From positions 1 to 64,000 of the forward strand of contig NZ_JBGBPY010000001.1 of NCBI RefSeq assembly GCF_041107455.1: DNA of 64,000 nt. The letters run 5' to 3'. Below are positions 40,084-64,000 of this stretch, piece after piece. Made by a program: the position numbers and the translations under genes. Positions within the stretch are counted from its first letter, which is position 1; each line of letters begins with the position of its first letter. Under the pieces are notes generated by a model, which worked only from the letters and a program-made list of their open reading frames with translations, made no database searches and was not told the DNA's origin. The DNA is from Rhodanobacter humi. GTDB taxonomy: Bacteria; Pseudomonadota; Gammaproteobacteria; Xanthomonadales; Rhodanobacteraceae.

Positions 40084-40403
40084 AATCGTGCCGACATGGC
40101 CAGAACTGCAGCAGCAACGAAGGATCGACTGGCGATGGCGGCGTCACGCAGGTAAGACGGTCTGTTTTGACTTGGGTGTGGGCACAAGCTCGGCGTACCG
40201 CGCGCGCTCGCGATGTGCACGGCTTGGACAAGCGTTGCGGCCCTGCCCTGCCCCTGATGACGCACCCTGACAGGCGTCCATGTCCCCGGCATCCACGATC
40301 ACCCGGTCCCACGATCGTCCGATCAAATGACACAGATCAGTGCCGGCCGCTTGCGGCCTGCGCAGAATCCGGATGCATCAACTTTCCCACCGGAGTCATC
40401 CCC
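40075..40403. other. Divergent lexA/azurin intergenic region
   Basis: These 329 bases carry the lexA operator at the left edge and an FNR-type dyad at 40327-40340. The middle shows no coding frame of note. Confidence 0.45.
40327..40340. promoter_or_regulatory. FNR-type site upstream of azurin
   Basis: ATGAC-ACAG-ATCAG, 64 bases before the azurin start. It matches the NTGAY-N4-RTCAR pattern repeated throughout the anaerobic island. Confidence 0.6.
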
Positions 40404-40850
40404 ATGCGCAAACTGATCGTCCTCGCCCTGCTCGGCCTCGCTTCCTCGCCGCTGATGGCGGCCGAATGCAGCACCACGGTCGAGGCCAGCGACGCAATGC
40501 AATACAACGTCAAGTCCATCACCGTGCCCAAGACCTGCAAGAGCTTCAAGGTCACGCTGAAGCACACCGGCAAGCTGCCGGTGGCCTCGATGGGCCACAA
40601 CTGGGTGCTGGCGCACGCCGCCGACGAATCCGGCGTGATCGCCGACGGCATGCAGGCCGGTGCCGCCGACAGCTACGAGAAGCCCGGCGACACCCGCATC
40701 ATCGCCCACACCAAGCTGATCGGCGGCGGCCAGTCCGACACCGCGACGATCAACGTGGCCAAGCTCAAGGCCGGCGAGCAGTACGCCTATTTCTGCACGT
40801 TCCCCGGCCATGCCGCACTGATGAAGGGCACGCTGAGTCTGGGCAAATGA
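40404..40850 (+). CDS. azu: Azurin
   Basis: The 148-residue exported blue copper protein has a signal peptide ending LMAAE. All copper ligands are present: His in MGHNWVL, and Cys, His and Met in YFCTFPGHAALMKG. Azurin carries electrons in the periplasm and is a donor to copper nitrite reductase, encoded 17 kb away in this island. The stop context TGGGCAAATGAG is repeated once directly after the gene (TGGGTAAATGAG). An FNR-type site lies 64 bases upstream. Confidence 0.95.
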   Translation: MRKLIVLALLGLASSPLMAAECSTTVEASDAMQYNVKSITVPKTCKSFKVTLKHTGKLPVASMGHNWVLAHAADESGVIADGMQAGAADSYEKPGDTRIIAHTKLIGGGQSDTATINVAKLKAGEQYAYFCTFPGHAALMKGTLSLGK

Positions 40851-40882
40851 GCCTGGGTAAATGAGCAGACAAGTCGCCACCC

Positions 40883-40920
40883 GCACGATGCCCCCGGCCG
40901 CAAAGCCGGGGGCATCGTGC
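40883..40920. terminator. Long stem-loop after azurin
   Basis: A perfect 15-base stem (GCACGATGCCCCCGG with CCGGGGGCATCGTGC) around an 8-base loop, 32 bases after the azurin stop. There is no T-run, so it is either an attenuator or a Rho-assisted end. It sits right before the PLP-enzyme start. Confidence 0.7.
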
Positions 40921-42042
40921 ATGCATGAACCGGGTCCGGACCTCCCCATGCAGGATGTTTCCCAGCTGTTGTCTCCGCACGAAACCGGGCGCCGCTGGGT
41001 ACACGCCGCGCTGGAAATGCTCGCGCAGGAAGCCGCGCGCTCGGCCGACACGCACCTGCTCAAGCTCGACTTTCCCGGTTTTCCCGGCATCGACTTCTAC
41101 TTCAAGGACGAGTCGGCGCATCCCAGCGGCAGCCTGAAGCACCGCCTCGCCCGCTCGCTCTACCTCTACGCGCTGTGCAACGGCCGCCTGCGCGAGGGCC
41201 AGGCGGTGGTCGACGCCTCTTCGGGCAGCACGGCGATTTCCGAGGCCTGGTTTGCGCGCCTGCTCGGCCTGCCATTCACCGCGGTGATGCCGGCCTGCAC
41301 CGCGCCGCGCAAGATCCGCGACGTGCAGGCGCTGGGCGGCCGCTGCGACCTGGTCGACGATCCCGCCCAGGTACATGCGCGCGCCGCCGAACACGCCACG
41401 CGCGGCGCCTGCCACCTCGACCAGTTCGGCCTCGCCGTGCAGGCCACCGACTGGCGCGGCAACAACAACATCGCCGAGTCGATCATCCAGCAGATGGCGC
41501 GCGAGCCCCGGCCGGTGCCGGCGTGGATCGTCTGCGGTGCCGGTACCGGCGGTACCTCGGCCACCATCGGCCGCTACCTGCGCTACCGCCGCCTGGACAC
41601 CCGCCTGTGCGTGGCCGAGCCGACCGGCAGCGGCTACGTCGAGGGCTGGCGCGGGCGTGACCGCGATGCGGTGGCGCGCCAGCCCACCCTGATCGAGGGT
41701 ATCGGCCGGCCGCGCGTGGAGCCGGGCTTCCTGTTCGACGTGGTCGACGAGGTGATCGAGGTGCCCGACACCACCTCGATCGCCGCCGCCTGGCTGCTTG
41801 AGGAACTGCTCGGCCGCCGCTACGGCGGCTCCTCCGGCACCAACCTGGTGGCTTGCCTGCAACTGGCCGCCGGCATGCGCGATCGCGGCGAGCGCGGCAG
41901 CATCGTGAGCTTGCTGTGCGACCCCGGCGAACGTTATGCGGAGACGCTGTTCGATCCGGCGTGGCTGGCCGCGCGCGGCATCGACATCGGCCCCGCGCGC
42001 GAAGCTTTGCGGCACTGCCTGGCCAACGGGCCGCACGGCTGA
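40921..42042 (+). CDS. PLP-dependent cysteine synthase-family enzyme
   Basis: About 373 residues of fold type II PLP enzyme. The Schiff-base Lys is in HPSGSLKHRLA, the substrate loop in VVDASSGSTAISEAWFA, and the phosphate-binding Gly run in CGAGTGGTSATIG. It groups with cysteine synthase/cystathionine beta-synthase-like enzymes, but the substrate is not predictable. I start it at 40921 because the upstream frame runs through the stem-loop; 40948 is an alternative. It sits between azurin and ubiD inside the anaerobic island. Confidence 0.78.
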   Translation: MHEPGPDLPMQDVSQLLSPHETGRRWVHAALEMLAQEAARSADTHLLKLDFPGFPGIDFYFKDESAHPSGSLKHRLARSLYLYALCNGRLREGQAVVDASSGSTAISEAWFARLLGLPFTAVMPACTAPRKIRDVQALGGRCDLVDDPAQVHARAAEHATRGACHLDQFGLAVQATDWRGNNNIAESIIQQMAREPRPVPAWIVCGAGTGGTSATIGRYLRYRRLDTRLCVAEPTGSGYVEGWRGRDRDAVARQPTLIEGIGRPRVEPGFLFDVVDEVIEVPDTTSIAAAWLLEELLGRRYGGSSGTNLVACLQLAAGMRDRGERGSIVSLLCDPGERYAETLFDPAWLAARGIDIGPAREALRHCLANGPHG

Positions 42043-42052
42043 CCACGATCAA
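42039..42052. promoter_or_regulatory. FNR-type site upstream of ubiD
   Basis: CTGAC-CACG-ATCAA overlaps the stop of the PLP-enzyme gene and lies 57 bases before the ubiD start. Confidence 0.6.
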
Positions 42053-42108: not shown

Positions 42109-43620
42109 ATGAGCCACCACGACCTGCGTTCCTTCCTCGACCGGCTCGAACGCCAGCAGCAATTGCTGCGCGTGCAGGCGCCGGTGGATCCGCATCTGGA
42201 AACCACCGCGCTGTGCCATCGTGCCCTGCGTGAAGGCGGCCCTGCCCTGCTGATGGAACAGCCGCTCGGTTCGGGCCACGCCTTCCTCGGCAACCTGTTC
42301 GGCCATCGCCGCCGCATCGAGCTGGCGCTGGCCGGGCGGCCGCTGGCTTCGCTGCGTGAGCTGGGCCAGCTGCTGGCCGCAATCAAGGAGCCGCGCTGGC
42401 CGGCCAACCTGCGCCAGGCGCTGGCCACCTGGCCGGAGCTGGCGCAGCTCGCCCACGTGGCGCCGCGCCACGTCGAGGAAGCCGCGTTCCTGCACGAAAC
42501 GCGGGAAGGCGCGGACATCGACCTCGCCCGCCTGCCGATCCAGCATTGCTGGCCGGGCGATGCGGGCAAGCTGGTCACGCTGGGTCTGGTGATCACCCGC
42601 GGCAGCCGCAAGCGCCGCCAGAACGTGGCGATCTACCGCCAGCAGGTGATAGCGCCGAACCGCGTGATCATGCGCTGGCTGCCGCATCGCGGCGGCGCGC
42701 TGGACCATGCCGACTGGCGCGTGGATCGTCCGCGCCAACCCTTCCCCGTGCTGGTGGCGATCGGCGCGGACCCCGCCACCTTGCTCGCCGCCGTGGCGCC
42801 GGTGCCGGACACGTTGTCCGAATACGAGTTCGCGGGCCTGCTGCGCGCCGAGCGCACGCGGCTGTGGCGCAGCGAGCTGACCGGCCTCGACGCGCCGGCC
42901 GGCGCGGAGATCCTGCTGGAAGGCTTCATCCATCCCGACGACACCGCGCTGGAAGGTCCGTTCGGCGACCACACCGGCTACTACAACGCGCAGGACCGTT
43001 TCCCGGTGCTCACCATCGAGCGCATGCGCTTGCGCAAGGATGCGATCTACCAGGGCAGCTACATGGGCCGCGCGCCGCACGACGAGCCTTCGGTGCTGGC
43101 GATGGCGCTGAACGAGCTGTTCGTGCCGATCCTGCAGAAGGTGTTCCCCGAGATCGTCGACTTCCACCTGCCGCCGGAGGCCTGCTCCTACCGCGTCGCC
43201 GTGGTGGCGATCCGCAAGCAGTACGCCGGCCACGCGCGGCGCGTGATGATGGCCGTGTGGTCGTACCTGCGCCAGTTCACCTACACCAAGTTCGTGATCG
43301 TGGTGGACGCCGACATCGACGCGCGCGACTGGTCGCAGGTGATCTGGGCCATCGCCACCCGCGTCGACCCCGCGCGCGACGCGATGCTGGTGGAGAACAC
43401 GCCGATCGACTACCTCGACTTCGCCAGCCCCGTCGCCGGGCTGGGCTCCAAGCTCGGCCTCGACGCCACCAACAAGTGGCCCGGCGAGACCAGCCGCACC
43501 TGGGGCATGCCGATCGCGCCGGACGACGCGGTGGAGGCGCGGATGGATGCCTTGTGGCGAACGCTGCGAGAATCGGCGGATGCCGGGCCCGACCTGCCCG
43601 CCCGCCGGAGTCCCCGATGA
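42109..43620 (+). CDS. ubiD: UbiD, 4-hydroxy-3-polyprenylbenzoate decarboxylase
   Basis: The 503-residue enzyme uses prenylated FMN to decarboxylate the ubiquinone precursor without O2. Family landmarks: [14 protein letters not shown] at the start, [11 protein letters not shown]-like [16 protein letters not shown], the [16 protein letters not shown] active-site stretch, and [11 protein letters not shown] near the end. The length is normal (E. coli 497). It overlaps the prephenate dehydrogenase gene as ATGA. An FNR-type site lies 57 bases upstream, so this may be an anaerobic second copy. Confidence 0.92.
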
Positions 43621-44375
43621 TCTTCGCCCTGTTCGGCCATGGCCGCTTCGGCTGCGCCTTCGCCGACCTGCTGCAACGCGCCGGCCACGTCGTGCGCATC
43701 CACGACCCGCAGGCGGAAATACCCGCGGCGCTGGCCTGCGCCACGCCGGCCGATGCGCTCGCCGGCGCCGACTGGGTGGTGCTGGCGATGCCGGTGCCAC
43801 AGCTGGAGCCGGCGCTGCGCGAACTGCGCCCCCTGCTCGATGCGCGGCACACCGTGATCGACGTGGGCAGCGTGAAGGAGCACCCCTGCGCCCTGCTCGA
43901 CGAACACCTCGGCGAGGCGATCCCGCACGCCGGCACCCATCCGCTGTTCGGACCGCTCAGCCTCGCCCGCGGCGAGCCGCTGCGCGCGGTGCTGTGCGCC
44001 AGCGCGCGCCATCCGCAGGCCGCCGAACGCACGCGCGCCCTGTTCGAATCGCTGGGCTGCACGGTGATCGCGCAGGACGCCGCCGCGCACGACCGCGCGA
44101 TGGCGAAGACCCACGCGCTGGCGTTCTTCATCGCCCGCGCACTGGTGGAGATGGGCGTGGGCGAGGACTTGTCGGTGGCGCCGCCCTCCTTCCTCGGCCT
44201 GGCCAACATGCTCGCCGCGGTGCGCGGCGACGCCGGCCACCTGTTCGCCGCGATCCAGCGCGAGAATCCCTACGCCGAGGCGGCACGCGCCGAGCTGCTG
44301 GAGCACCTGGCCGCGATCCACCACCGGCTGCTCGCCGGCGACGAGACCCTGGCGATTCCGCCGCCGGCGCCTTGA
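43617..44375 (+). CDS. Prephenate dehydrogenase (TyrA family)
   Basis: The 252-residue NAD-dependent dehydrogenase begins with the Rossmann motif [17 protein letters not shown]. It continues with the TyrA core: [32 protein letters not shown], and [17 protein letters not shown] with its substrate His. It converts prephenate to 4-hydroxyphenylpyruvate on the way to tyrosine. There is no ACT domain. It overlaps ubiD by four bases. With the chorismate mutase domain at 51781-52620 it would complete an O2-free tyrosine route. Confidence 0.85.
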
Positions 44376-44471: not shown

Positions 44472-44771
44472 CTACGGTTTCCCGCCGTCCGAACCTGCGA
44501 GCATCGCCAGCGCCTCGCGCGCCTGCTCCTGCAAGGCGAGCCATGCGGCTTCCCACTGCCCCGGCTTGGGTTTGGCGTGGCCGAACCGCAACAGCATCTC
44601 GCGCGCCTGTCGCAGCTGCGCCTGCAGCGCGGCGTTCCCGGCCAGCACGCGCTCGTGCTCGTCCTTGCCCACCATGAACACCTTGCGGTCCTTGCATACG
44701 CCGATGCACGGCTGCGGCGCTTCGATCCTGCCGCAACCGATGCATTGCCACGCCTGGATGTAGTCGGTCAT
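44472..44771 (-). CDS. Small Cys-cluster protein, unknown
   Basis: The 99-residue protein opens with a cysteine cluster (QCIGCGRIEAPQPCIGVC, spacing C-x2-C-x9-C-x3-C) that could hold zinc or an Fe-S cluster. An amphipathic, probably coiled-coil half follows (ALQAQLRQAREMLLRFGHA). The family is not recognised. A near-consensus FNR-type site (TTGAT-CCGG-ATCAG) lies 54 bases upstream, so it belongs to the anaerobic regulon. Confidence 0.6.
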   Translation of the reverse strand: MTDYIQAWQCIGCGRIEAPQPCIGVCKDRKVFMVGKDEHERVLAGNAALQAQLRQAREMLLRFGHAKPKPGQWEAAWLALQEQAREALAMLAGSDGGKP

Positions 44772-44824: not shown

Positions 44825-44838
44825 TTGATCCGGATCAG
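44825..44838. promoter_or_regulatory. FNR-type site upstream of the Cys-cluster gene
   Basis: TTGAT-CCGG-ATCAG differs from the classical FNR consensus TTGAT-N4-ATCAA at one base. It lies 54 bases before the start at 44771. Confidence 0.7.
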
Positions 44839-45322: not shown

Positions 45323-45406
45323 GCCACGGACTCCTGCCTGCGACGGATGCCGCAGTCGCATCGATGCTAGCGATCGATCCGGATTGCCTGCTTGATCCAC
45401 GACAAA

Positions 45407-45420: not shown

Positions 45421-45479
45421 AAGCGCGGCCGCTTGTCGCAGCCACGATGCGCACTCCTTTCCCGCGCGGAGCGCCGCCC

Positions 45480-46478
45480 ATGCAACTCGTCTGTCCCGCC
45501 GGCAACCTGCCCGCCCTGCAGGCGGCGATCGACGCCGGCGCCGACGCGGTCTACGCGGGCCTGCGCAACGAAACCAATGCGCGCGCCTTTCCCGGCCTCA
45601 ACTTCTCCGACGCGGAGCTGGCGCAAGGCATCGCCTATGCGCATGCACGCGGCCGCAAGGTCTATCTCGCACTGAACACCTACCCCGACAGCGCGCGCCT
45701 GCCGCAGTGGCAGGCGGCGGTGGACAAGGCCGCGGCGCTGGGCTGCGATGCGATCATCGCCGCCGAGCTGGCGGTACTGGACTACGCCACGCGCACGCAT
45801 CCCGCGCTGGCGCGGCATCTCAGCGTGCAGGGCTCGGCCACCACCGCGCCTGCGCTGCGCTACATGCACGAGCGCTTCGGCATCAGCCGCGCGGTGCTGC
45901 CGCGCGTGCTCTCGGTGCAGCAGGTGGAGCGCCTGTGCGAAACCAGCCCGGTGCCGCTGGAGGTGTTCGCGTTCGGCAGCCTGTGCATCATGGTCGAGGG
46001 GCGCTGCCAGCTCTCCAGCTACGTCACCGGCGCCTCGCCGAACCGCCACGGCGTGTGCTCGCCAGCGAAGTTCGTGCGCTGGGACGAACACGACGACGGC
46101 CGCCGCAGCGTGCGCCTCAACGAGGTGCTGATCGACCGGTTCGAACCCGCCGAACCTGCTGGCTACCCCACCGTGTGCAAGGGCCGCTTCGAAGTGGGCG
46201 GCGAAACCTTCCACGCGCTGGAAGAGCCGACCAGCCTCAACACGCTGGAGCTGCTGCCGCGCCTGGCCCAGGCCGGCGTGGCGGCACTGAAGATCGAGGG
46301 CCGCCAGCGCGGCGTGGCCTACGTGGCCTCGGTGACGCGCACCTGGCGGGACGCGATCAACCGCTACCGCAGCTCGCCCGGGAACTGGTCGGCGCAACCG
46401 GCGTGGCAGACCACGCTGACCAAGCACGCCGAAGGCCACCAGACCACGCTCGGCCCCTATCACCGTCACTGGCACTGA
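45480..46478 (+). CDS. ubiU: UbiU, O2-independent ubiquinone hydroxylation subunit
   Basis: The 332-residue U32-family protein is nearly identical in length to E. coli UbiU (331). It shares the start QLVCPAGNLPALQAAIDAGA. The four iron-sulfur cysteines are present: GSLCIMVEGRC, GVCSPAKF, and PTVCKGRF. With UbiV it hydroxylates the ubiquinone ring from prephenate instead of O2. ATG 45480 was chosen over an upstream GTG/ATG because it matches the family start. ubiV follows one base after the stop. Confidence 0.95.
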   Translation: MQLVCPAGNLPALQAAIDAGADAVYAGLRNETNARAFPGLNFSDAELAQGIAYAHARGRKVYLALNTYPDSARLPQWQAAVDKAAALGCDAIIAAELAVLDYATRTHPALARHLSVQGSATTAPALRYMHERFGISRAVLPRVLSVQQVERLCETSPVPLEVFAFGSLCIMVEGRCQLSSYVTGASPNRHGVCSPAKFVRWDEHDDGRRSVRLNEVLIDRFEPAEPAGYPTVCKGRFEVGGETFHALEEPTSLNTLELLPRLAQAGVAALKIEGRQRGVAYVASVTRTWRDAINRYRSSPGNWSAQPAWQTTLTKHAEGHQTTLGPYHRHWH

Positions 46479-46479: not shown

Positions 46480-47364
46480 ATGCAGAGCACGATGAAACTC
46501 AGCCTCGGCCCGTTGCAGTACTTCTGGCCGCGCGAACGCACGTACGCCTTCTACCGCGCGGCGGCGGACTGGCCCGTCGACATCGTTTACCTGGGCGAAA
46601 CGGTGTGCAGCAAGCGCCGTGAACTCTCCACCGGCGACTGGATCGCGCTGGCCGCGGAGCTGGCCGCAAGCGGCAAGCAGGTGGTGCTCTCCTCGCTCGC
46701 CCTGATCGAGGCCGAATCGGAACTGGGCGTGCTGAAGCGCCTCGTCGCCGAAGGCCGGGGCTGGATCGAGGCGAACGATCTCTCCGCCGTGCAGCTGTGC
46801 CGCGAACGCGGCGTGCCCTTCGTGGCCGGACCCACGCTCAACGTGTACAACCACGCGGCGCTGCGGCTGTTGATGGACGACGGCCTCGTCCGCTGGGTGC
46901 CCGGCGTCGAACAAGGCCACGTGCTGATCCGCGAACTGCGCGATGCCGTGCTGGCCGCGGGCCTTGCGATGCCCGAGCTGGAAGTGATCGCCTACGGCCG
47001 CCTGCCGCTGGCGTACTCGGCGCGCTGCTTCACCGCGCGTGCGCTGGACGTGCCCAAGGACCAGTGCGGCTTCCGCTGCATCGACTATCCGGACGGCCTG
47101 CCGCTGGCCACCCGCGAGGACCGGCCCTTCCTGCGCATCAACGGCATCCAGATCCAGGGCGACGAGATCACCGACCTCGGCCCCGAGCTGCCGCAGCTGC
47201 GCGAACTGGGCGTGGACGTGCTGCGCCTGTACCCGCAGGCCGAAGGCATGGCCGACATCGTCGCCCACTACCACCACGCCCGCCGCTCGCCGCAACCGCC
47301 GCCGCGCATCGCCGCGCGCAGCGGCTACTGGCACGGCGAGCCGGGGATGCAGTCGGCAAACTGA
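46480..47364 (+). CDS. ubiV: UbiV, O2-independent ubiquinone hydroxylation subunit
   Basis: The 294-residue U32-family partner of UbiU. The start region KLSLGPLQYFWPRERTY matches E. coli UbiV; an internal ATG at 46492 is the exact family start. The 4Fe-4S cysteines are conserved: ETVCSKRRE, then SARCF...DQCGFRC with the C-x12-C-x3-C spacing. It is one base downstream of ubiU, so they form one operon. Confidence 0.95.
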   Translation: MQSTMKLSLGPLQYFWPRERTYAFYRAAADWPVDIVYLGETVCSKRRELSTGDWIALAAELAASGKQVVLSSLALIEAESELGVLKRLVAEGRGWIEANDLSAVQLCRERGVPFVAGPTLNVYNHAALRLLMDDGLVRWVPGVEQGHVLIRELRDAVLAAGLAMPELEVIAYGRLPLAYSARCFTARALDVPKDQCGFRCIDYPDGLPLATREDRPFLRINGIQIQGDEITDLGPELPQLRELGVDVLRLYPQAEGMADIVAHYHHARRSPQPPPRIAARSGYWHGEPGMQSAN

Positions 47365-47415: not shown

Positions 47416-48624
47416 TCACACCCTGGCGAACACCAGGCTGGCGTTGGTGCCGCCGAAGCCGAAGCTGTTCGACATCACGGTGGCCAGCCGCGCCTCGCGG
47501 CTTTCGCGCAGGATCGGGAAACCTTCGGCGCGCGGGTCCAGTGCGTCGATGTTGGCCGAGCCGGCCATGAAACCGCCCTGCATCATCAGCAGGCTGTAGA
47601 TCGCTTCGTGCACGCTGGCCGCGCCAAGCGCGTGGCCGGTGAGCGCCTTGGTCGAGGACAGCGGCGGCATCGCCGGCCCGAATGCCTCGCGCACGGCGGC
47701 CAGCTCCACGATGTCGCCCAGCGGCGTGGCGGTGCCATGGGTGTTGAGATAGTCGACCGGGTGCGTGAGGTGCGCCAGCGCCATCCGCATGCAGCGCACC
47801 GCACCCTCGCCGGAGGGCGCCACCATGTCGGCGCCGTCGGAGGTGACGCCGTAGCCGACGAGTTCCGCGTGGATGCGCGCGCCGCGCGCCTTGGCATGCT
47901 CGTAGTCCTCCAGCACCAGCATGCCGCCGCCACCGGCGATCACGAAGCCGTCGCGGTCGGCGTCATAGGGGCGCGAGGCAGCCTGCGGCGTGTCGTTCCA
48001 GCCGCTGGAGAGCGCACCCATCGCGTCGAACTGCGCGGTCATGCCCCAGTGCGCTTCCTCGCCGCCGCCGGCGAACACCACGTCCTGCGCGCCGTGGCGG
48101 ATCAGGTCGGCCGCCGCGCCGATGCAGTGCGCCGAGGTGGCGCAGGCGGCGGCGATGGAATAGCTGAGACCCAGGATGCCGAACGCGGTGGCCAGCGAGG
48201 CCGACACGGTGGAACACATCGTGCGCGGCACCATGAACGGCCCCACCTTGCGCACGCCCTTGCCGCGCAGCAGGTCGGCCGTCTCGATCTGCCATTGCGC
48301 CGAGCCGCCCCCGGAGCCGGCCACCACGCCGGTGCGCGGGTGGCGCACCTGTTCCAGCGCCAGCCCGGCGTCGGCGATCGCCGAGCGCATCGCGAGGTAG
48401 GCGTAGGCCGCGGCGTCGCCCATGAAGCGGCGCAGCTTGCGGTCGATCGCGGCCTCCAGGTCCACCTGCGGCTCGCCCGCGACCTGGCTGCGCAGGCCGC
48501 GCGCGGCGTAGTCGGGGATCGCGCGGATGCCGCTCTTCAATTCCTGCAGCGCGCGCGTCACCGTGTCCGCCACGTCGCCGAGGCAGGACACGATGCCCAT
48601 GCCGGTCACCACCACGCGGCGCAT
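47416..48624 (-). CDS. fabB: 3-oxoacyl-ACP synthase I (FabB)
   Basis: The 402-residue condensing enzyme has the catalytic Cys in [12 protein letters not shown] and the two His in [11 protein letters not shown] and [11 protein letters not shown]. It elongates the cis-3-decenoyl-ACP made by FabA, so unsaturated fatty acids form without O2. It begins one base after the fabA stop. Confidence 0.92.
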
Positions 48625-48625: not shown

Positions 48626-49141
48626 TCAGAAACCCTCCGTGGACTGGAACAGGCCCACGCGCATGTCGCTGGCCACGTAGATCAGGCGGTCGTCGACGAA
48701 GGTCTTGCCGTCGGCGATCACCAGCGCGAGCTTGCCGCGCATCACCCGGCGGATGTCGATCTCGTAGCGCACCAACTTCGCGCTGGGCAGCACCTGGCCG
48801 GTGAACTTCACCTGGCCCACGCCCAGCGCCCGGCCGCGGCCGGGCTCGCCCAGCCAGGGCAGGAAGAAGCCGGAGAGCTGCCACATCGCGTCCAGGCCCA
48901 GACAGCCCGGCATCACCGGGTCACCCTCGAAGTGGCAGTCGAAGAACCACAGCCGCGGCGTGATGTCGAGCTCGGCGTGGATCACGCCCTTGCCATGGGC
49001 GCCGCCCGTCTCGGCGATCTGCGTGATGCGGTCGAACATCAGCATCGGCGGCGCGGGCAGCCGCGCGTTGCCGTCGCCGAACAGTTCGCCGCGGCCGCAG
49101 GCCAGCAGCGCCTGGTAATCGTAGGAGGAAGAACGGGTCAT
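48626..49141 (-). CDS. fabA: 3-hydroxydecanoyl-ACP dehydratase/isomerase (FabA)
   Basis: The 171-residue hot-dog enzyme has the active-site His and Asp in [22 protein letters not shown]-like sequence, and ends with the FabA pattern [19 protein letters not shown]. It introduces the cis double bond without O2. An FNR-type site lies 56 bases upstream, and fabB follows, so this pair is probably switched on when oxygen is low. Confidence 0.93.
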
Positions 49142-49196: not shown

Positions 49197-49210
49197 TTGA
49201 TCCGCGTCAG
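49197..49210. promoter_or_regulatory. FNR-type site upstream of fabA
   Basis: TTGAT-CCGC-GTCAG, 56 bases before the fabA start. Confidence 0.65.
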
Positions 49211-56001: not shown

Positions 56002-56568
56002 TCAGGTTCCGCCGAGCTGGCGGCGGATCGCCTCGACGAACACCGAATCGAGCCGGCCGATGTGGCTGGTGCGCGCCACGATGCGGCCGTCGGCATCGAG
56101 CAGGATCAGTTCGCTGGAATGGTTGAATTCGCCGTCCGGCAACTGGCGGTATTGCAGGCCGAGCACGCCGGACAGCTGGCGCGCGCCGGCCGGCTCGACC
56201 CGCGCCAGCGTCCACGCGGGCGCATCGAGCTTGCGCTTCTCCGCATAGCCGTGCAGGGCGGCCACGCTGTCGCGGGCCGGGTCGAAGCTCACCGCGAGCA
56301 GGTCGATCTTCGCGCGCTCGGCCGGGGTGAGCGCGTTGCGGGTGGCGCGCATGCTGTCGATGATCATCGGGCAGACCATCTGGCAGGAGGCGTAGAACAT
56401 CGTCACCAGCTGCGGCCGGCCGCGGCGCTCGGCGAGCAGTTGCCGATGGCCGTCCTGGTCGGTGAGTTGCAGCTTGAGGTGGTAGATGGAGTCGCCGGGC
56501 AGCGGCTGGGTGGCGTGGGTGGTGGTGAACGGGAGCATCAGGACAAGAAGCAGGAGCAGTTGTTTCAT
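56002..56568 (-). CDS. SCO1/SenC-family copper chaperone
   Basis: The 188-residue thioredoxin-fold protein has an N-terminal signal or anchor, the copper-binding CxxxC in FYASCQMVCPM and the distal His in EFNHSSEL. SCO proteins load copper into oxidases and, in denitrifiers, help supply copper enzymes such as NirK. It lies downstream of nirK-nirV in the same direction. Confidence 0.88.
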   Translation of the reverse strand: MKQLLLLLVLMLPFTTTHATQPLPGDSIYHLKLQLTDQDGHRQLLAERRGRPQLVTMFYASCQMVCPMIIDSMRATRNALTPAERAKIDLLAVSFDPARDSVAALHGYAEKRKLDAPAWTLARVEPAGARQLSGVLGLQYRQLPDGEFNHSSELILLDADGRIVARTSHIGRLDSVFVEAIRRQLGGT

Positions 56569-56751
56569 GGTGTGCCTCGCAAGACTTGCTTCGCTGTACT
56601 CATGTCGGGAGAGGGCTTTCCTGCCCTCCCCCGACTCGCCGAAGCCGGCCGCAGGCCGGCTTCGGCTCCGCCGCGGAATCGCGAGGCGATTCCGCGCGTG
56701 CGGCCCATCCATGGGCCGCGGCTCCCCCAGCTGCTCCGCGCGGCTTGCCGC

Positions 56752-57513
56752 TCAGGGCTTCGCACAGCGGAAGCCCATGTTGTTGGTGGTGTCCGACGCC
56801 TTCAGCGCGGAAAGCATCGCGATGCGCATCAACACCGCGTAGTTCTCCTTCTGCTGCAGGCTGATCGCGCCGGCGCCGCAGAACTTCAGCACGTCGGGAT
56901 CGCCCTGGTCGCGGCTGTCGCTGGCGACCAGCAGTGCGTTGTAGTCGTCCACCCATTCCCACACCGGCTCGGTGATGTTGCGCACGCCATAAGCGTTCGC
57001 GGCGCCGCCGATGTCGGGCAGCGGCGCGCTGGACGGGCGCGAGTACCAGGCCAGCAGGTGCTCGCGCCAGGCCGGGTCGTTGCGCGCGTCACGACGGGTG
57101 GCGTCGGCGGCGGCCGCGTATTCCCATTCGTACCAGGTGGGCAGGCGCGCGCCTTCGCTCTCGCAGTAGGCCGCGGCGGCGAACCAGCTCACCCGGGTCA
57201 CCGGCTGGCGCGGCTTCGCTTCCCGGCCGAGCGCGAGCGGGCCGGCCCAGTGGCTGAGGTAGCGCGCGTCGGCGAGGATGCCGGCGACGCGGTCGCGCCG
57301 CCATTCGGGGTGGGTCTTCACGAAGGCCAGGAACTCGGCGTTGGTGACCGGCTCGACGCGCAGGCGGAACGGCGCGATCTGCGCGGGCGCCGCCTTGCCG
57401 TCGGCCGGCATCACGCTGGCGAAGCGCCCTCCCGGCAGCGCGGCGTAATCCGCCGCCGCTGCCGGCAAGGCCAGCACCAGACCCAGCCATGCGAGTGCAT
57501 GGTGCAGGCGCAT
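56752..57513 (-). CDS. nirV: NirV-like formylglycine-generating-enzyme-fold protein
   Basis: The 253-residue exported protein has a signal peptide (ending LPAAAADY) and the SUMF1/FGE fold (EPVTNAEFLAFVKTHPEW, PVTRVSWFAAAAYCESEGAR, LPTWYEWEYAAAA, NNMGFRCAKP). A homologous protein, NirV, accompanies nirK in many denitrifiers and is needed for or helps nitrite reductase maturation. It begins two bases after the nirK stop. Confidence 0.85.
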   Translation of the reverse strand: MRLHHALAWLGLVLALPAAAADYAALPGGRFASVMPADGKAAPAQIAPFRLRVEPVTNAEFLAFVKTHPEWRRDRVAGILADARYLSHWAGPLALGREAKPRQPVTRVSWFAAAAYCESEGARLPTWYEWEYAAAADATRRDARNDPAWREHLLAWYSRPSSAPLPDIGGAANAYGVRNITEPVWEWVDDYNALLVASDSRDQGDPDVLKFCGAGAISLQQKENYAVLMRIAMLSALKASDTTNNMGFRCAKP

Positions 57514-57515: not shown

Positions 57516-59051
57516 TCAGTGCTCCGCGTTCACCACCGGGCCCGCCCCGGCACGCGCCTTGGTCACGTCGTCCTTGCTGAACTGGCCACCCGGGTTGCCC
57601 CAGCTGTTGATCACGTAGGTGAGGATGTTCGCCACCTCGTCGTCGGTGAGCTGGCTCATCGGCGGCATCACCGAGTCGTACTCGTGGCCGTTGACCTTGA
57701 TCTTGCCGTTGAGGCCATGGGTGACGATGCTCATCGCGCGCTTCGGATCGGCCGCCAGGAAGTCGGACTTGGCCAGCGGCGGGAACACGTTCGGCAGGCC
57801 TTCGCCGTTCGCCTGGTGGCAGACCGAGCAGGTGCCGGTGAACAGCTGCTTGCCCGCGGCGACCTGGTCCGCCTTGGTCAGCGTGCCCGCCGCATGCGCC
57901 TTGGCCGCCGCGCTCACCGCCTTCAGGTTCGGTTCCGAGCGATCGCCCAGGTAGACGGAGTCCACTTCCTTGCCCGAGTAGACCAGCTTGTTCTCCGGAC
58001 CGTCGACTTTCAGGATGCCCAGTGCGCCCTTGTTGAACGCGCGGAAGATCGAGTGGTCGACCAGCACGTAGCTGCCCGGCACGTCGGTGTGGAACTCCAC
58101 GATCGCCGCACCGCCGGCGGGGATCAGCGTGGTCTGCACGTTGTGCTGGGCCACCGTGCCGCCTTCGGGCTGCACGCGGTCGAAGATCTCGCCGATCACG
58201 TGGAAGCTCGACACCAGGTTGGGGCCGCCGTTGCCCACGAACAGGCGCACGTTCTGGTTGGTCCTGGCGGTGAGCGCGTTGTCGCCGGTGAGCGCGCCCT
58301 CCTTGCCGTTGAACAGCACGTAGGTGGGCTTCTCGTCGATCGCCTTCTCCATGTCGAACGGCTGCAGGCCTTTCTCGCGGTACTTGCCCGTGGTGTAGAA
58401 GTCGCCCTGCATCACGTAGTACTCGTGGTCCACCTTCGGCAGGCCCTCCGGCGGCTCGACCAGGATCAGGCCGTACATGCCGTTGGCGATGTGCATGCCC
58501 ACCGGCGCGGTGGCGCAGTGGTAGACGTAGATGCCCTGGTTCAGCGCCTTGAAGGTGAACTGCGACTCGTGGCCCGGCGCGGTGAAGCTGGACGCCGCGC
58601 CGCCGCCCGGGCCGGTGACGCCGTGCAGGTCGATGTTGTGCGGCATCTTGCTGTCCGGCGCGTTCTTCAGGTGGAACTCCACCGTGTCGCCCTGGCGCAC
58701 GCGGATGAAGCTGCCCGGCACGGTGCCGCCGAAGGTCCAGAACGTGTACGTCACGCCCTCGGAGATCGGCATCTCCTTCTCCACCACTTCCAGCTCCACG
58801 ATGACCTTGGCCGGATAGTTGCGATTGACCGGTGGCGGCACGTGCGGCGGGCTGGTCAGCACCGCGTGGATCGGTGCGCCCTGCGGCGGGCCGAAGTCGG
58901 CGGGCGCGAGATCGAGCGGTGCGGGGGCGGCGTGCGCGGCGCCGGCGATGCCTGCCGCGACCGACGACAGGCCGCCGTCGCGCCTGCCGTCGCCGCAGGC
59001 GGCGAGCAACATCGTGGCGGTCATGGCGGCTACACACAATGCGTACTTCAT
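57516..59051 (-). CDS. nirK: Copper nitrite reductase with C-terminal cytochrome c
   Basis: The 511-residue protein reduces nitrite to NO in the periplasm. The N-terminal lipobox (MLLAACGDG) suggests membrane attachment. Two cupredoxin domains carry type 1 ligands (His in MPHNIDLHG, Cys in YHCATAPVG, His and Met in MHIANGMYG) and type 2 His plus the catalytic Asp-His pair (SSFHVIGE). A c-type heme domain follows ([11 protein letters not shown], axial Met in DSVMPPM), giving built-in electron delivery. Perfect FNR-type dyad 55 bases upstream. Confidence 0.95.
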
Positions 59052-59105: not shown

Positions 59106-59119
59106 TTGACCGCAGTCAA
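59106..59119. promoter_or_regulatory. FNR-type site upstream of nirK
   Basis: TTGAC-CGCA-GTCAA, a perfect dyad 55 bases before the nirK start. Confidence 0.75.
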
Positions 59120-59271: not shown

Positions 59272-59823
59272 TCAATCCCGCTGCGGCAGCATGCGGCGCA
59301 AGGTGTTGTCGCGCGTCCAGTAGTGGTGGAACAGCGCCGCCGCGGCGTGCAGGCCGATCAGGTAGTAGCCGAGCGTGCCGATGGTTTCGTGGATGCCCTC
59401 CAGCGTATGGCCCAGGTCCTTGTCGGCAGCGGTCAAGGCGGGCAGTTGCAGCCCGAAGAACGGGATCGGCTTGCCCTCTGCGCCCAGCGTGAGCCAGCCC
59501 AGGATCGGCATGGCCAGCAGGAACGCGTACAGCGCCAGGTGCACCAGCGCGGCCAGGCGTTCCTGCATGACCGGCAGCGGCGGGTGAACCGGCGGCCTGC
59601 GGCCGCCCATGCGGCGCAGCGCCAGGCGTATCGGCAACAACGCCAGCACGCTCAGGCCCAGCATGTAGTGCCAGTTCATCATTCCCGCACGCCCCGCGCT
59701 GCCGCGCGGGTAGATGCCGCGCAACTCCATCAGCGCGTACACGGCGATCAACAGCAGCAGGGTCAGCCAGTGCAGCGCGATCAGTGCGCTGCTGTAACGC
59801 GCGGGGGTGTGCTTGAAGCCCAT
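59272..59823 (-). CDS. Cytochrome b561
   Basis: The 183-residue, four-helix diheme protein has the conserved His pairs (ALIALHWLTLLLL, MMNWHYMLGLSVL, LVHLALYAF, GLHAAAALFHHYW). It exchanges electrons between the quinone pool and a periplasmic or superoxide partner. It lies between the FNR gene and nirK in the same direction. Confidence 0.88.
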   Translation of the reverse strand: MGFKHTPARYSSALIALHWLTLLLLIAVYALMELRGIYPRGSAGRAGMMNWHYMLGLSVLALLPIRLALRRMGGRRPPVHPPLPVMQERLAALVHLALYAFLLAMPILGWLTLGAEGKPIPFFGLQLPALTAADKDLGHTLEGIHETIGTLGYYLIGLHAAAALFHHYWTRDNTLRRMLPQRD

Positions 59824-59879: not shown

Positions 59880-60632
59880 TCAGGCCGTCAGCAGGTTCTG
59901 TCCGAGCTCGCGCAGTTGCTGCTGGTCGCGCAGATGCAGCACGCGCCCCTTGATCGCCACCAGCCCCTTCGCGCGGAAGCGGCTCAGCGTGCGGCTCACC
60001 GTCTCGGCGGCGAGGCTGAGGTAACTGGCGATGTCGCTGCGCGACATGCTGAGCTGGTAATGCGTGCCGGAGAAGCCGCGCACGGCATGGCGCTCGCCAA
60101 GATCGACCAGGAAAGCCGCCAGGCGCTCGTCGGCGCTGTGGTCGCCGGCCAGCAGCCGCGCCGCGCCGAGCGGCCGGCTGATCAAGCGGAACAGGTGCCG
60201 CTGCACCGCGGGCTGGCGCGTGGCCAGCACGCTCATCGCGGGGAACGAGAAACGGCAGAATTGCGCGTCGTCCAGCGCCACCGCATCGCATGGGAAACGG
60301 TCGGGGTAGATCGCGTCCAGGCCGATCACCTCGCCCGGCAGGAAGAAGCCGAGCACGTGCTCGCGGCCCTGGTGGTCCAGCTGGCGCGTCTTCACCGTGC
60401 CGGCGCGCACCGCGTAGACCGCCTCGAACGGATCGCCCTGGTGGAACACCGCCTCGCCGGCGCGGTACGGCCCGAGGTGTTCCATCAGGCTGTGCAACGG
60501 CGACAGCTCGGGCTTGCCGTAGCCGACCATCGCGCAGACGCTGGACAAGGCGCAGGTGCGGCAGAAATCCGTGGCGCCGTCGGTGGCGACGGCGTCGGGC
60601 GCAAGGTGCCCGCTCATCGATCCCCTGCTCAT
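59880..60632 (-). CDS. FNR/ANR-type oxygen-sensing regulator
   Basis: About 250 residues of the Crp/Fnr family. N-terminal cysteines FCRTCALSSVC have the C-x2-C-x5-C spacing of the FNR 4Fe-4S cluster, and the fourth Cys is in AQFCRFSF, so it senses O2 directly; DNR proteins lack these. The recognition helix has E-x2-SR (AETVSRTLSRF), which reads TTGA half-sites. It overlaps hemN as ATGA; a second ATG at 60617 has a better AGGGG signal. It is the best candidate regulator for the FNR-type sites listed here. Confidence 0.92.
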   Translation of the reverse strand: MSRGSMSGHLAPDAVATDGATDFCRTCALSSVCAMVGYGKPELSPLHSLMEHLGPYRAGEAVFHQGDPFEAVYAVRAGTVKTRQLDHQGREHVLGFFLPGEVIGLDAIYPDRFPCDAVALDDAQFCRFSFPAMSVLATRQPAVQRHLFRLISRPLGAARLLAGDHSADERLAAFLVDLGERHAVRGFSGTHYQLSMSRSDIASYLSLAAETVSRTLSRFRAKGLVAIKGRVLHLRDQQQLRELGQNLLTA

Positions 60633-62026
60633 ATCGCCCGCGAGAACCGGGTCGGCGCCGCCTTGCCGAGGTAGGCGTCGAAGCACATGGCCACGATGCG
60701 CAGCAGCAGCCGCCCACGCGGCGTGACCCGGATCGTGCGCTCGTCGAGCGTCACCAGGCCGTCGCCGGCCAGCGCGTGCAGGCGTTCCAGCTCGGCCGCG
60801 AAATACTCGGCGAACACGATGCCGCGGTGCTCGCCGAACGTGATCATGTCGAGTTCGCCGTAGCACATCAGCTGGCCGATCGCCTCGCGGCGGATCAGGT
60901 CGTCCTCGACCAGCGCGAGGCCGCGCGCCACCGGCAGGCGACCGTTGTCCAACGCGGCGTAGTAGCCGGTGAGGTCGCGCGCGCTCTGGCTGTAGCTGTC
61001 GCCGATGCGGCCGATCGCGCTCACGCCCAGACCCACGATGTCGCACTCGCCATGGGTGGAATAGCCCTGGAAATTGCGCTGCAGCGTGCCGGCGCGCTGC
61101 GCCGCCACCAGTTCGTCGTCGGCGCGCGCGAAGTGGTCCATGCCCACGTAGGCGTAGCCCGCCTCGTCGAGGCGCGCCAGCGCGCGGCCGATCAGGGCGA
61201 GGCGCGTGGCCGGGTCGGGCAGCTCGGCGGCGTCGATCTGCCGCTGCGCCTTGAACATCTCCGGCAGGTGCGCGTAGGCGTAGACCGCCACGCGATCCGG
61301 CGCCAGCGCGACCACCTCGTCCAGCGTGTGCTCGAAGCCCGCCACGGTCTGCCGCGGCAGGCCGTAGATCAGGTCCACGCTGGTCGAGCGGAAGCCGCTG
61401 GCGCGCGCCGCCTCCAGCACCTCGCGGGTCTGCGCCACGCTCTGGATGCGGTTCACCGCCGCCTGCACCGCGGGGTCGAAATCCTGGATGCCCACCGAGA
61501 TGCGGTTGAAGCCCAGCTCGCCCATGCCGCGGATGTAGTCGGCGTCGGCGAAGCGCGGGTCGATCTCGATGCCGAACTCGCGACCGCGCTCGACGCTGAA
61601 GCTGAAGTGCCGCGCCAGCACGCCCATCAGCTCCTGCATGCGCGGCACGTCGAGGAAGTTCGGCGTACCGCCGCCGAAGTGCAGCTGGGTCACCTGGCGA
61701 TCGCGATCGAACAGCTTCGCCACCAGTTCGATCTCGCGGTACAGCCGCTCCAGGTAGCGGTCGGCCTTGCCCACGTCGCGGGTGATGATGCGGTTGCAGC
61801 CGCAGTAGAAGCACGGGCTGACGCAGAACGGCACATGCACGTAGATCGACAGCGGGCGCGGGATCGGCTCCTCGTTGGACGCCTGGATCGCCGAGCGCAA
61901 CGCGCGCTCGTCGAAGTCGCCGCGGAACTGCGGCGCCGTGGGGTAGCTGGTGTAGCGCGGACCGGCCATGTCGTAGCGCGCGATCAGTGCCGGATCGAAC
62001 TCGGGGATCTGGATGGCGTGGTTCAT
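60629..62026 (-). CDS. hemN: Oxygen-independent coproporphyrinogen III oxidase (HemN)
   Basis: The 465-residue radical-SAM enzyme has the cluster motif PFCVSPCFYCGCN (CxxxCxxC with extra Cys), HFGGGTPNFL and the C-terminal HemN cap. It makes heme without O2. It overlaps the FNR gene and starts 35 bases after a perfect FNR-type dyad. Confidence 0.95.
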   Translation of the reverse strand: MNHAIQIPEFDPALIARYDMAGPRYTSYPTAPQFRGDFDERALRSAIQASNEEPIPRPLSIYVHVPFCVSPCFYCGCNRIITRDVGKADRYLERLYREIELVAKLFDRDRQVTQLHFGGGTPNFLDVPRMQELMGVLARHFSFSVERGREFGIEIDPRFADADYIRGMGELGFNRISVGIQDFDPAVQAAVNRIQSVAQTREVLEAARASGFRSTSVDLIYGLPRQTVAGFEHTLDEVVALAPDRVAVYAYAHLPEMFKAQRQIDAAELPDPATRLALIGRALARLDEAGYAYVGMDHFARADDELVAAQRAGTLQRNFQGYSTHGECDIVGLGVSAIGRIGDSYSQSARDLTGYYAALDNGRLPVARGLALVEDDLIRREAIGQLMCYGELDMITFGEHRGIVFAEYFAAELERLHALAGDGLVTLDERTIRVTPRGRLLLRIVAMCFDAYLGKAAPTRFSRAI

Positions 62027-62060: not shown

Positions 62061-62074
62061 TTGACGCACGTCAA
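62061..62074. promoter_or_regulatory. FNR-type site upstream of hemN
   Basis: TTGAC-GCAC-GTCAA, a perfect dyad 35 bases before the hemN start. Confidence 0.75.
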
Positions 62075-62188
62075 ACCGGCTTGCGACGACTTCGCGCCCC
62101 ACCGCGCGCCGCCGCGGTTTCCCTGTCCTGCGCGATCCGCGTGCGTCGACATGCCGCAGCCGCTGCGACCGCGCCAATGCGGGCAGGA

Positions 62189-62202
62189 CTGACGCAGGTC
62201 AG
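62189..62202. promoter_or_regulatory. FNR-type site upstream of norB
   Basis: CTGAC-GCAG-GTCAG, a perfect dyad 72 bases before the norB start, in the intergenic region shared with hemN. Confidence 0.65.
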
Positions 62203-62273
62203 GAAGGGTCGACGGCCACGCACCTAGCATGCCGCGCGCCTTCCCCCTTCTCATGAGCCCCAAGGAGATTCGC

Positions 62274-64000
62274 ATGGCCTCACCCACTCCAGCTGCGGAC
62301 CGCGCCGGTCCGCAGGATCGCGTCAGCCGGGTACTGATCTGGATACTCGTCGCCGTCACCATCGCCTGTTCGATCGGCATGCTGGCGGCCACCCGCAGCA
62401 CCTACGAACAGGCCGCACCGATCCCGCAGCTGATGGCGACGGCCGACGGCACGCCGGTACTGACCTACGCCGACATCGTCGCCGGCAAGTCCGGCTTCCA
62501 GAAGGCCGACCTGATGGACTACGGCAGCCTGTACGGCATGGGCTCGTCGTTCGGCGAGGACTACACCGCCGAATACCTCGTGCAACTGGCGAAGGAGGTG
62601 CAGGACAACCTGGCGCTGGCGCGCTACGGCCAGCCGTTCGCCGCCATCGATGCCGAGCGGCAGTCCGGCATCGCCACCGCCATGCGCGCGGAGCTGCAGG
62701 GCATCGACCTCAGCCAGTCGCAGGTAGTGCTGCCCGACGCGGTGGCCAAGGCCATCGTCGCGCTGCGCGAGCGCATCGGCGAATCGCTGCGCCGGGACGA
62801 CTTCACCAGGGGCTATACCGGCGCCCGCGCGCTGAATCCGGAGAGCGCGCGGCAGACCGCCGGCTTCCTGCTCTACTCCTCGCTGACCACGGTCGCGCGC
62901 CGCCCCGGCAAGGACTACTCGTGGACCAGCAACTGGCCGTCCGAACCGCTGGTCGGCAACAGCCCCACGCCGGCCACGTTCACCTGGACCTGGGCCTCGT
63001 TCACCATGGTGTTCTTCGCCATCGGCGCGATCCTGGTGATCTTCCGCCTGTGGATCGAACCCAGGGCGCCGAACGAAACCTTCGAGCCCGTACTGGAGAA
63101 GTTCCGCACGCCCACGCCCAGCCAGAAGGCGTTGTGGAAGTATTTCCTGGTGGTGGCCGGCGTGCTGCTGGTGCAGATCCTGGTCGGCTCGATCATGGCG
63201 CACTACTACACCGAGCGCGCCAGCTTCTACGGCATCGACATCGACCGCTGGCTGCCGTTCGCCTTCCTGCGCAGCGTGCACCTGCAGGCGCCGATCGTGT
63301 GGATCGGCGTGAGCTGGATCGCGGGCGGCCTGTTCCTCGCCCCGATCATCGGCCGCAGCGAGCCGCGCGGGCAGCGCTTCCTGGTGAACCTGATCTTCTG
63401 GGTGCTGGTGGTCATCGTGGCCGGCGCGCTGGTCGGCAACTACCTCGGCATCGCCGGCATCGTCGACCAGCACTGGTTCTGGTTCGGCAACCAGGGGCTG
63501 TCCTACCTGGAGATGGGCCGCTTCTGGCAGATCCTGTTCTTCGTCGGCCTCACCGTGTGGTGCGTGGTGCTGCTGCGTGCGTTCCTGCCCACGCTGCGGA
63601 CGCTGTTCCGGCAGAGCGGTTCGCTGTACGGCCTGTTCCGCATCGAACACCTGGTGTGGGTCAGCACGCTGACCGTGGCCTTGTTCTACGTGTTCGGCAT
63701 GATCCCGCTGGGTTCGCCCAACCCCTCGTTCTCGATCACCGACTTCTGGCGCTGGTGGGTGGTGCACCTGTGGGTGGAACTGGCCTTCGAGCTGTTCGCC
63801 GCCTCGGTCACCGGCTACTTCCTGATGGCGCTGGGGCTGGTGTCGCGGCAGATGGCCGAGCGCGCGGTGCTGTTCGAATGGATCCTGATCGTGATCGGCG
63901 GCGTGCTGGGCACCGGCCACCACCTGTACTGGGCCGGTGAGCCCGGCCTGTGGGTGGGCGTGGGCAGCATGTTCTCCTTCATCGAGGTGCTGCCGCTGGT
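62274..64000 (+). CDS. norB: Quinol-dependent nitric oxide reductase (qNor), partial
   Basis: At least 575 residues are in the window; the 3' end is cut. AAGGAG precedes the ATG. The periplasmic N-domain typical of single-subunit qNor is present (SLYGMGSSFGEDYTAEYL). Membrane helices follow with heme and FeB ligand His residues (FLRSVHLQAPIVWIGVSW, LFRIEHLVWVSTL, VVHLWVELAF, GTGHHLYWAG). It reduces NO to N2O with quinol electrons and removes the NO made by NirK. Confidence 0.93.
   Translation, partial: MASPTPAADRAGPQDRVSRVLIWILVAVTIACSIGMLAATRSTYEQAAPIPQLMATADGTPVLTYADIVAGKSGFQKADLMDYGSLYGMGSSFGEDYTAEYLVQLAKEVQDNLALARYGQPFAAIDAERQSGIATAMRAELQGIDLSQSQVVLPDAVAKAIVALRERIGESLRRDDFTRGYTGARALNPESARQTAGFLLYSSLTTVARRPGKDYSWTSNWPSEPLVGNSPTPATFTWTWASFTMVFFAIGAILVIFRLWIEPRAPNETFEPVLEKFRTPTPSQKALWKYFLVVAGVLLVQILVGSIMAHYYTERASFYGIDIDRWLPFAFLRSVHLQAPIVWIGVSWIAGGLFLAPIIGRSEPRGQRFLVNLIFWVLVVIVAGALVGNYLGIAGIVDQHWFWFGNQGLSYLEMGRFWQILFFVGLTVWCVVLLRAFLPTLRTLFRQSGSLYGLFRIEHLVWVSTLTVALFYVFGMIPLGSPNPSFSITDFWRWWVVHLWVELAFELFAASVTGYFLMALGLVSRQMAERAVLFEWILIVIGGVLGTGHHLYWAGEPGLWVGVGSMFSFIEVLPL

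Follow-up and report, generated by a model that had tools for sequence, protein, structure and literature searches.

The window analysed here, i.e., positions 1-64,000 of NZ_JBGBPY010000001.1 from Rhodanobacter humi (genome of 4.15 Mb, 99.94% complete), contains a gene cluster spanning 40404-64000, from azurin through norB, in which ubiV and ubiU are found some 4-6 kb from a gene that encodes a chorismate mutase (CM) and UbiT as a single protein (CM-UbiT). A first-pass annotation had listed azurin, ubiD, a tyrA-like gene, ubiU, ubiV, fabB, fabA, nadB, nadA, ubiT, nirK, a nirV-like gene, fnr, hemN and norB together at this place, and that list holds, most of its members scoring above curated cut-offs (Table 1); the grouping goes beyond chance, since many relatives have these genes at one locus as well. 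What the annotation had taken for a separate chorismate mutase gene of tyrosine synthesis actually forms the N-terminal part of UbiT. We show that this fusion is conserved, and suggest that it probably serves O2-independent ubiquinone synthesis.

The CM-UbiT fusion

The fusion protein exceeds the cut-offs of both the UbiT model, its membership resting on the SCP2 domain, and the CM_2 model (Table 1), with an AroQ-type profile and a three-helix fold in its N-terminal part. A sequence search of the PDB with that part returned the chorismate mutases 3rmi (6.3e-13) and 1ecm (4.5e-12). Among 29 aligned fusions, which exclude the broken copy L035, R12, R29, K40, D49, R52 and E53 are invariant and Q89 is kept in at least 90%; we take these to correspond to Arg11, Arg28, Lys39, Asp48, Arg51, Glu52 and Gln88 of E. 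coli chorismate mutase, and the catalytic pattern of AroQ mutases (Arg, Arg, Lys, Asp, Arg, Glu, Gln) is retained. The predicted model (mean predicted local distance difference test, pLDDT, 85.8; predicted template modelling score, pTM, 0.57) places the mutase helices at residues 2-43, 50-66 and 71-88, followed by a disordered linker at residues 95-112 (pLDDT <50) and an SCP2 fold; given this pTM, the relative arrangement of the two domains is unsure. Foldseek matched the model to the SCP2 domain of UbiJ (1.7e-5) and, lower, to 1ecm (8.5e-3, root-mean-square deviation 1.1, 83 columns). Across 23 close pairs, third-position differences relative to the mean of positions 1 and 2 amounted to 2.73 in the CM part, 4.06 in UbiT and 1.52 in the linker, the first of these ratios arguing that the CM part evolves as protein.

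In a sample of 250 genomes of the order, full-length fusion matches occur in families f1-f4, and families f8, f9, f10 and f12 have UbiT without the fusion. According to per-domain profiles, both domains share one open frame in 100 of the 101 loci among L047-L165 that hold both; these loci include some genomes fetched twice and provide 86 distinct linkers, the window's among them. The sole exception, L163, has other broken frames as well. The linker measures 14-49 residues between profile ends, and its two unused frames are open in just 37 of 172 cases. Fused rows cluster in the UbiT tree, with the unfused L047, L048 and L168 falling among them (bootstrap not settled), so that the tree neither shows nor rules out a single origin of the fusion. 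Large UbiT frames in other members of the class (G332, G370, G404, G410, G588 and G494) were considered as further fusions and rejected, as no mutase was found there.

An FNR-type promoter within the linker

A class II FNR promoter combines a TTGAT-N4-ATCAA box with a -10 element that puts the box near -41.5. We found an FNR-type palindrome matching at least 8/10 positions in 55 of the 86 distinct linkers, compared with 3.4% when codons were shuffled; the 55 boxes share one phase and mostly lie 86-92 nucleotides (nt) before the UbiT domain. The codon at the box end is CAA in 36, CAG in 18 and CAT in one, as opposed to 211 CAA and 727 CAG in the remainder of these genes (Fisher P = 3e-11). A hexamer lies 23 nt beyond the box (CATGAT, GATGAT, CATGCT, GACAAT and others), whose second base (A) and sixth base (T) are invariant over the 55 linkers with such a box, although the residues encoded there vary.

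In three unfused relatives of the same order (L054, L056 and L057), TTGATCTGTATCAA stands upstream of ubiT, followed 21 nt on by TATACT; other unfused relatives (e.g., L049, L051, L052 and L058-L060) have no such box upstream of ubiT. Considering the near-identical spacing of box and hexamer, the fusion appears to have taken the old ubiT promoter into its linker. An ATG follows a few bases past the likely transcription start, which makes a nearly leaderless UbiT message possible. An internal ribosome site was also considered, as the conserved D-x-D-Q-G codons of the linker resembled a Shine-Dalgarno stretch, and was rejected: a match of at least five bases precedes a start codon in 4 of 29 linkers, and the conserved element is the palindrome.

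Chorismate mutase genes beside ubiT outside the order

Outside the order we covered 88 genomes with UbiT, with flanks mostly of 1.5-10 kb, shorter at contig ends. In the class and phylum searches the six best candidates were scored in most genomes; neighbour counts rest on the fetched stretches and leave out UbiT-region matches in G517, G485, G361, G251, G285 and G289, and any unlisted. Five of the 88 (G288, G396, G534, G428 and G481), which belong to five families, carry a separate chorismate mutase gene about 1 kb or less from ubiT, and ubiU and ubiV occur in the same stretch in all five. Four of these mutase genes diverge from ubiT over an FNR-type box (10, 8, 9 and 9 of 10). A rough chance expectation is 0.12 neighbours (P ~2e-7), assuming two such genes per 3-Mb genome. 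The five neighbours need four changes in the UbiT tree, at least two of them by well-supported branches (bootstrap not settled), and therefore do not form one group. By alignment, all five mutases have the two Arg, the Lys and the Arg-Glu pair that belong to the active site.

Gene content, boxes and synteny of the cluster

The genes from azurin to the tyrA-like gene lie on the plus strand, two small genes on the minus, ubiU-ubiV on the plus, fabB to hemN on the minus and norB on the plus (Table 1). The calls of NadB, NorB, the nirV-position protein and the Crp/FNR-type regulator are based on Pfam. UbiD stays below the cut-off of the equivalog model NF008175 (690.1 vs 788 bits). The tyrA-like gene, whose ATG overlaps the ubiD stop (ATGA), carries a PDH_N domain (match to positions 32-107 of the 154 of the profile) and encodes a putative prephenate dehydrogenase. 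NirK has an apparent C-terminal cytochrome c domain (ccoP-like match of 31.6 bits, below cut-off, residues 430-517 of the searched frame). A DGC-domain gene is present in 36 of the 79 distinct named loci and adjoins an unfused ubiT in L048 and L210; its product is a candidate for a further part of O2-free ubiquinone synthesis. The genes directly before the cluster, at 34339-40074 on the minus strand, encode LexA, ImuA and a protein of the DNA polymerase III alpha type, a combination that resembles an SOS mutagenesis cassette.

Table 1 Features of the cluster in the R. humi window, with the matches on which each call is based.
Feature	Position	Strand	Basis or remark
Azurin	40404..40850	+	TIGR02695 179.9 bits, cut-off 105.1
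Pyridoxal-enzyme, cysteine synthase/desulfhydrase kind (cds1-like)	40861..42042	+	NF052478 464.3 bits, below cut-off 600
FNR-type box upstream of ubiD-tyrA	42039..42052		8/10
ubiD-family decarboxylase	42109..43620	+	Subfamily model TIGR00148 470.2 bits, cut-off 244.85
tyrA-like prephenate dehydrogenase	43617..44375	+	PF02153 (PDH_N) 50.6 bits, cut-off 26.5
Small conserved protein hypA	44472..44771	-	FNR-type box 44825-44838 (9/10) upstream
FNR-type box, 55 nt before ubiU	45392..45405		8/10
ubiU	45447..46478	+	NF047963 530.2 bits, cut-off 440
ubiV	46480..47364	+	NF047965 353.7 bits, cut-off 275
fabB	47416..48624	-	NF005935 637.6 bits, cut-off 630
fabA	48626..49141	-	TIGR01749 283.9 bits, cut-off 238.15
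FNR-type box before fabA	49197..49210		8/10
nadB (start approximate)	49295..50725	-	PF00890 FAD_binding_2 261.8 bits; adjoins nadA
nadA, 21 nt after fusion gene	50734..51759	-	NF006878 354.9 bits, cut-off 294
CM-UbiT fusion gene, 279 residues	51781..52620	-	PF01817 (CM_2) 50.3 bits, cut-off 27; PF02036 60.3 bits; NF047962 (UbiT) 131.9 bits, cut-off 46.9
UbiT (SCP2) domain, residues ~117-279	51784..52272	-	Profile matches; best Foldseek matches UbiJ SCP2 6h6p
-10-like element CATGCT, 23 nt after linker box	52301..52306	-	
FNR-type box in linker-coding DNA, CTGAC-N4-GTCAA	52330..52343	-	7/10
Chorismate mutase domain, residues ~1-92	52345..52620	-	Residue conservation; Foldseek to 1ecm
DGC-domain protein, overlaps fusion start	52610..52999	-	PF08859 115.1 bits
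Multi-pass membrane protein, NnrS-like by eye only	53010..54254	-	No family match
DUF2249 protein	54235..54477	-	PF10006
Outer-membrane porin-like protein	54555..55874	-	PF03573 18.8 bits, below cut-off 25
SCO1/SenC	56002..56712	-	PF02630
Formylglycine-enzyme-like (FGE-type) protein, nirV position	56752..57513	-	PF03781 88.7 bits
nirK with C-terminal cytochrome c domain (apparent)	57516..59051	-	TIGR02376 369.9 bits, cut-off 296.3; FNR-type box 59106-59119
Cytochrome b561-like	59272..59823	-	NF008566 138 bits, below cut-off 170
FNR-type regulator	59880..60617	-	PF00027, PF13545, PF00325; four candidate cluster cysteines read from translation
hemN	60629..62026	-	TIGR00538 563.1 bits, cut-off 324.95; FNR-type box 62061-62074 upstream
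norB, runs off window, start uncertain (ATG also 62253, 62274)	62229..64000	+	PF22085, PF00115

Boxes matching at least 8/10 positions were sought in the distinct upstream regions of the relatives. They precede ubiU (44/66), fabA (30/45) and hemN (7/14) at steady distances, and nirK (7/8) at more varied ones. Such boxes are rare before inner operon genes, namely fabB (0/44), nadB (0/51), the nnrS-like gene (0/44), the DGC-domain gene (0/35), ubiV (1/66) and nadA (2/59), as well as before ubiD (9/48), fnr (1/16) and tyrA (0/8). The hypA box, the strongest FNR-type box of the cluster, recurs at 8/10 or better in the upstream regions of 7 of 15 relatives. Hence, the idea of a single oxygen sensor over the whole cluster finds support at the sequence level for ubiU, fabA, hemN and nirK, and little for ubiD and tyrA.

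A scan of named genomes confirmed 290 relatives, the best 80 of which were retained. These 80 come from Rhodanobacter, Dyella, Frateuria, Lysobacter, Thermomonas, Arenimonas, Stenotrophomonas, Dokdonella, Luteimonas, Xanthomonas, Pseudoxanthomonas and others, and many are metagenome bins not named to a fine level; one of the bins carries the label Erythrobacter (L162) and is suspected of misbinning. The order of the DGC-domain gene, CM-UbiT, nadA, nadB, fabA and fabB, then ubiV-ubiU and ubiD, recurs with losses across the order, Dyella often having no nadA-nadB at the locus. A tblastn search with the window's proteins against the 53 distinct named loci with a 20-kb stretch found ubiU and ubiV in 47, nadB in 38, ubiD in 37, nadA in 36, fabA and fabB in 33, nirK in 26, fnr in 16, hemN in 13 and tyrA in 8. 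Dyella jiangningensis (CP007444.1) carries the same 20.8-kb locus at two distant sites (L090 and L091), as a duplication or an assembly artefact. L205 (genome G090) keeps nirK, the nirV-like gene, tyrA and fabA-fabB, and a UbiT match was not found in that genome.

The first-pass annotation had called the cluster portable. We rejected a portable or mobile island, as the gene order is shared across the order, none of 72,556 plasmid records covers 80% of the fusion and the 64-kb window has no tRNA. The GC content ranges from 0.68 to 0.74 in the cluster and from 0.60 to 0.71 over the window's first 34 kb. These comparisons identify the cluster as a long-standing block of synteny in the Lysobacterales (Xanthomonadales), devoted to anaerobic respiration and O2-free biosynthesis.

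Oxygen-dependent counterparts and tyrosine synthesis

The cluster had also been proposed to swap O2-using enzymes encoded elsewhere for O2-free versions, and single-family searches of the same genome did find HemF, PhhA and tryptophan 2,3-dioxygenase. Three FAD_binding_3 proteins score above 50 bits, two of them adjacent; they may be the ubiquinone hydroxylases UbiI/H/F, a family match that other flavin monooxygenases share. A desaturase is represented by one weak FA_desaturase match (49.6 bits). UbiD is also used aerobically and FabA and FabB are ordinary in aerobes, and these are therefore not clean O2 swaps. The swap logic thus stands in that O2-using counterparts exist, and falls short for ubiD, fabA and fabB.

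The tyrosine part of this logic stands as a correlation between gene families. PDH_N has a single match in the genome at E 0.01, i.e., the tyrA-like gene of the cluster, and CM_2 has two, the fusion and a 416-residue frame at C1:182165. The window's family accounts for 52 of the 250 sampled genomes of the order; PhhA is present in 51 of these and a strong PDH_N match (E <1e-9) in 14. The latter goes with the fusion, occurring in 9 of 13 genomes with a CM-UbiT match vs 5 of 39 others (Fisher P = 0.0002), where the 13 include G184, whose fusion has an in-frame stop, and G012, with a mutase remnant only, is counted among the others. Seven of the 14 PDH_N genes are no more than about 17 kb away from the fusion (G000, G039, G046, G145, G198, G202 and G242) and four adjoin a cysteine synthase-like gene, an apparent remnant of the locus (G090, G105, G115 and G244), which makes 11 of 14 in the locus or its apparent remnant; the remaining ones lie elsewhere in G012 and G214 and on another contig in G230. 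G080, G206 and G210, of the same genus as the window, have PhhA with neither the fusion nor a PDH_N match. What does not survive of the tyrosine swap is the mutase, which had been misread as a tyrosine gene.

Role of the fusion and alternative explanations

Prephenate is the hydroxyl donor of the O2-independent ubiquinone pathway according to a passage of PMC11574389, which cites PNAS 2024 e2321242121; a 2023 study in E. coli had, in the section concerned, left the donor open, and describes UbiT as thought to bind ubiquinone precursors and supply UbiUV (PMC10470549). Given this reported donor, the most likely role of the fusion is to produce prephenate where it is used. The explanation that we favour, and hold to be likely, is a conserved locus with FNR-type promoters whose CM-UbiT fusion supplies prephenate beside UbiT for UbiUV. 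Here, the mutase domain would convert chorismate to prephenate beside UbiT, UbiT would hold the ubiquinone precursor for UbiU-UbiV, and UbiUV would use prephenate in place of O2 as hydroxyl donor. The upstream operon would yield the full CM-UbiT protein, and at low oxygen the linker promoter would add UbiT alone together with NadA-NadB. More tentatively, and with somewhat less than even confidence, we propose that a dedicated mutase is a fourth, unnamed part of UbiUVT in several gammaproteobacterial lineages, CM-UbiT handing prephenate to UbiUV and the linker promoter lowering the CM-UbiT:UbiT ratio as oxygen disappears.

Several observations weigh against this explanation or its wider form. 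Concerning regulation, the putative class II layout found in 55 of the 86 linkers is lacking in the other 31, which have no 8/10 box and include the window's own copy (7/10, with CATGCT correctly placed), and just 7 of 67 CM starts are preceded by a box. Fourteen box-like sites lie in the window's first 39.5 kb, as dense as the nine in the 24.5 kb of the cluster (0.85 in a Markov control of 24.5 kb); box density was therefore rejected as evidence of an FNR regulon, and it is position, not density, that argues for function. Concerning the mutase, a second one is encoded in the genome (C1:182165), so the fusion is not the sole source of prephenate. The fusion is broken in G184 (L063, in-frame TGA) and in L163, and G012 (L062) keeps the mutase remnant only, beside fabA-fabB, with no match to UbiT, UbiU or UbiV in its 20-kb stretch. 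No mutase was found at 16 unfused loci of the order (L047-L060, L064 and L065), in the stretches of 83 of the 88 UbiT genomes outside the order, or at any of the 25 phylum-search loci with 1.5-kb flanks (L216-L240). With so many UbiT loci lacking it, a dedicated mutase is not needed everywhere. Finally, the equivalent of the active-site Asp is present in just one of the five neighbour mutases (L198).

As for the signal, the linker box might answer a nitric-oxide sensor of the DNR/NNR kind, with nitrogen oxide rather than oxygen as the switch. DNR-type regulators read nearly the same palindrome as FNR, and nirK and norB belong to the cluster; the cysteines of the cluster regulator, however, follow what we take to be the pattern of oxygen-sensing FNR, and we regard this alternative as doubtful, though worth keeping in mind.

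The mutase domain might instead feed the tyrA-like enzyme for anaerobic synthesis of tyrosine and phenylalanine, replacing the O2-dependent PhhA, with its joining to UbiT incidental. The genome's sole PDH_N gene does belong to the cluster, where its start codon overlaps the stop of ubiD; the family otherwise seems to rely on PhhA, and within it strong PDH_N matches accompany the fusion. However, the mutase stays with ubiT where no tyrA is found: tyrA accompanies the fusion in few of the distinct named loci, a tblastn search with the tyrA of the window gave no match in the five stretches with a neighbour mutase, all of which hold ubiU and ubiV, and another mutase, the 416-residue frame, is available. 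For this reason we consider the tyrosine explanation the weaker one, and unlikely. A further idea was that the tyrA-like enzyme might recycle prephenate after its use.

Alternatively, the fusion could be a run-through frame, mutase and UbiT being made separately from two promoters and the linker merely a translated promoter. This would fit a linker that is disordered, weakly constrained as protein by its third-position ratio, and equipped with a promoter and an ATG close behind. The frame is nevertheless kept in all but one locus despite many linker lengths, and the other frames are seldom open, which renders this possibility quite improbable. Lastly, since AroQ mutases are dimers, their fold could serve assembly, but the invariance of six catalytic positions in 29/29 fusions makes an inactive mutase domain that acts only as UbiT dimer or scaffold very improbable.

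Hydroxylations in which an organic molecule donates the oxygen have come to light only recently, and their chemistry is poorly understood. The fusion of an enzyme for the proposed donor to the carrier of the acceptor represents independent genomic support for the prephenate hypothesis and points to local supply or channelling, and CM-UbiT is a ready reagent for reconstituting the reaction in vitro. The promoter within the protein linker offers a clean example of one DNA stretch with two codes.

Comparison with known systems

The CM part shares the fold and the catalytic residues of AroQ mutases such as E. coli 1ecm. AroQ chorismate mutases are often fused to PheA or TyrA, and AroQ fused to DAHP synthase was among the PDB sequence matches of the N-terminal part. 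A full-text search of open-licence papers returned no report of a chorismate mutase fused to SCP2 or to a ubiquinone protein.

Compared with the E. coli UbiUVT pathway, as outlined in excerpts of PMC6747719 and PMC10470549, the cluster encodes the same UbiU, UbiV and UbiT families, above NCBI cut-offs. FNR-type boxes precede ubiU and ubiT here, as the latter source reports in the relevant section for E. coli ubiUV and a second ubiT promoter; E. coli ubiT is described there as having one FNR-dependent and one constitutive promoter, and the upstream operon could, by analogy, play the part of the constitutive one in R. humi. Unlike in E. coli, UbiT has an N-terminal chorismate mutase and the FNR-type promoter lies inside the reading frame. 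A ubiT-ubiU gene fusion in Zymomonas mobilis was taken as support for a shared function, in a passage of PMC6747719; whereas the partner there is UbiU, the partner here is a metabolic enzyme that makes the proposed oxygen donor. The U32 hydroxylases TrhP and RlhA, reported in passages of PMC11574389 and PMC10470549 as prephenate-dependent too, belong to the same superfamily as UbiU and UbiV and have the same proposed donor, but act on RNA. The pathway itself is thus already known; what is new is the fusion, the recurrent mutase neighbour and the embedded promoter.

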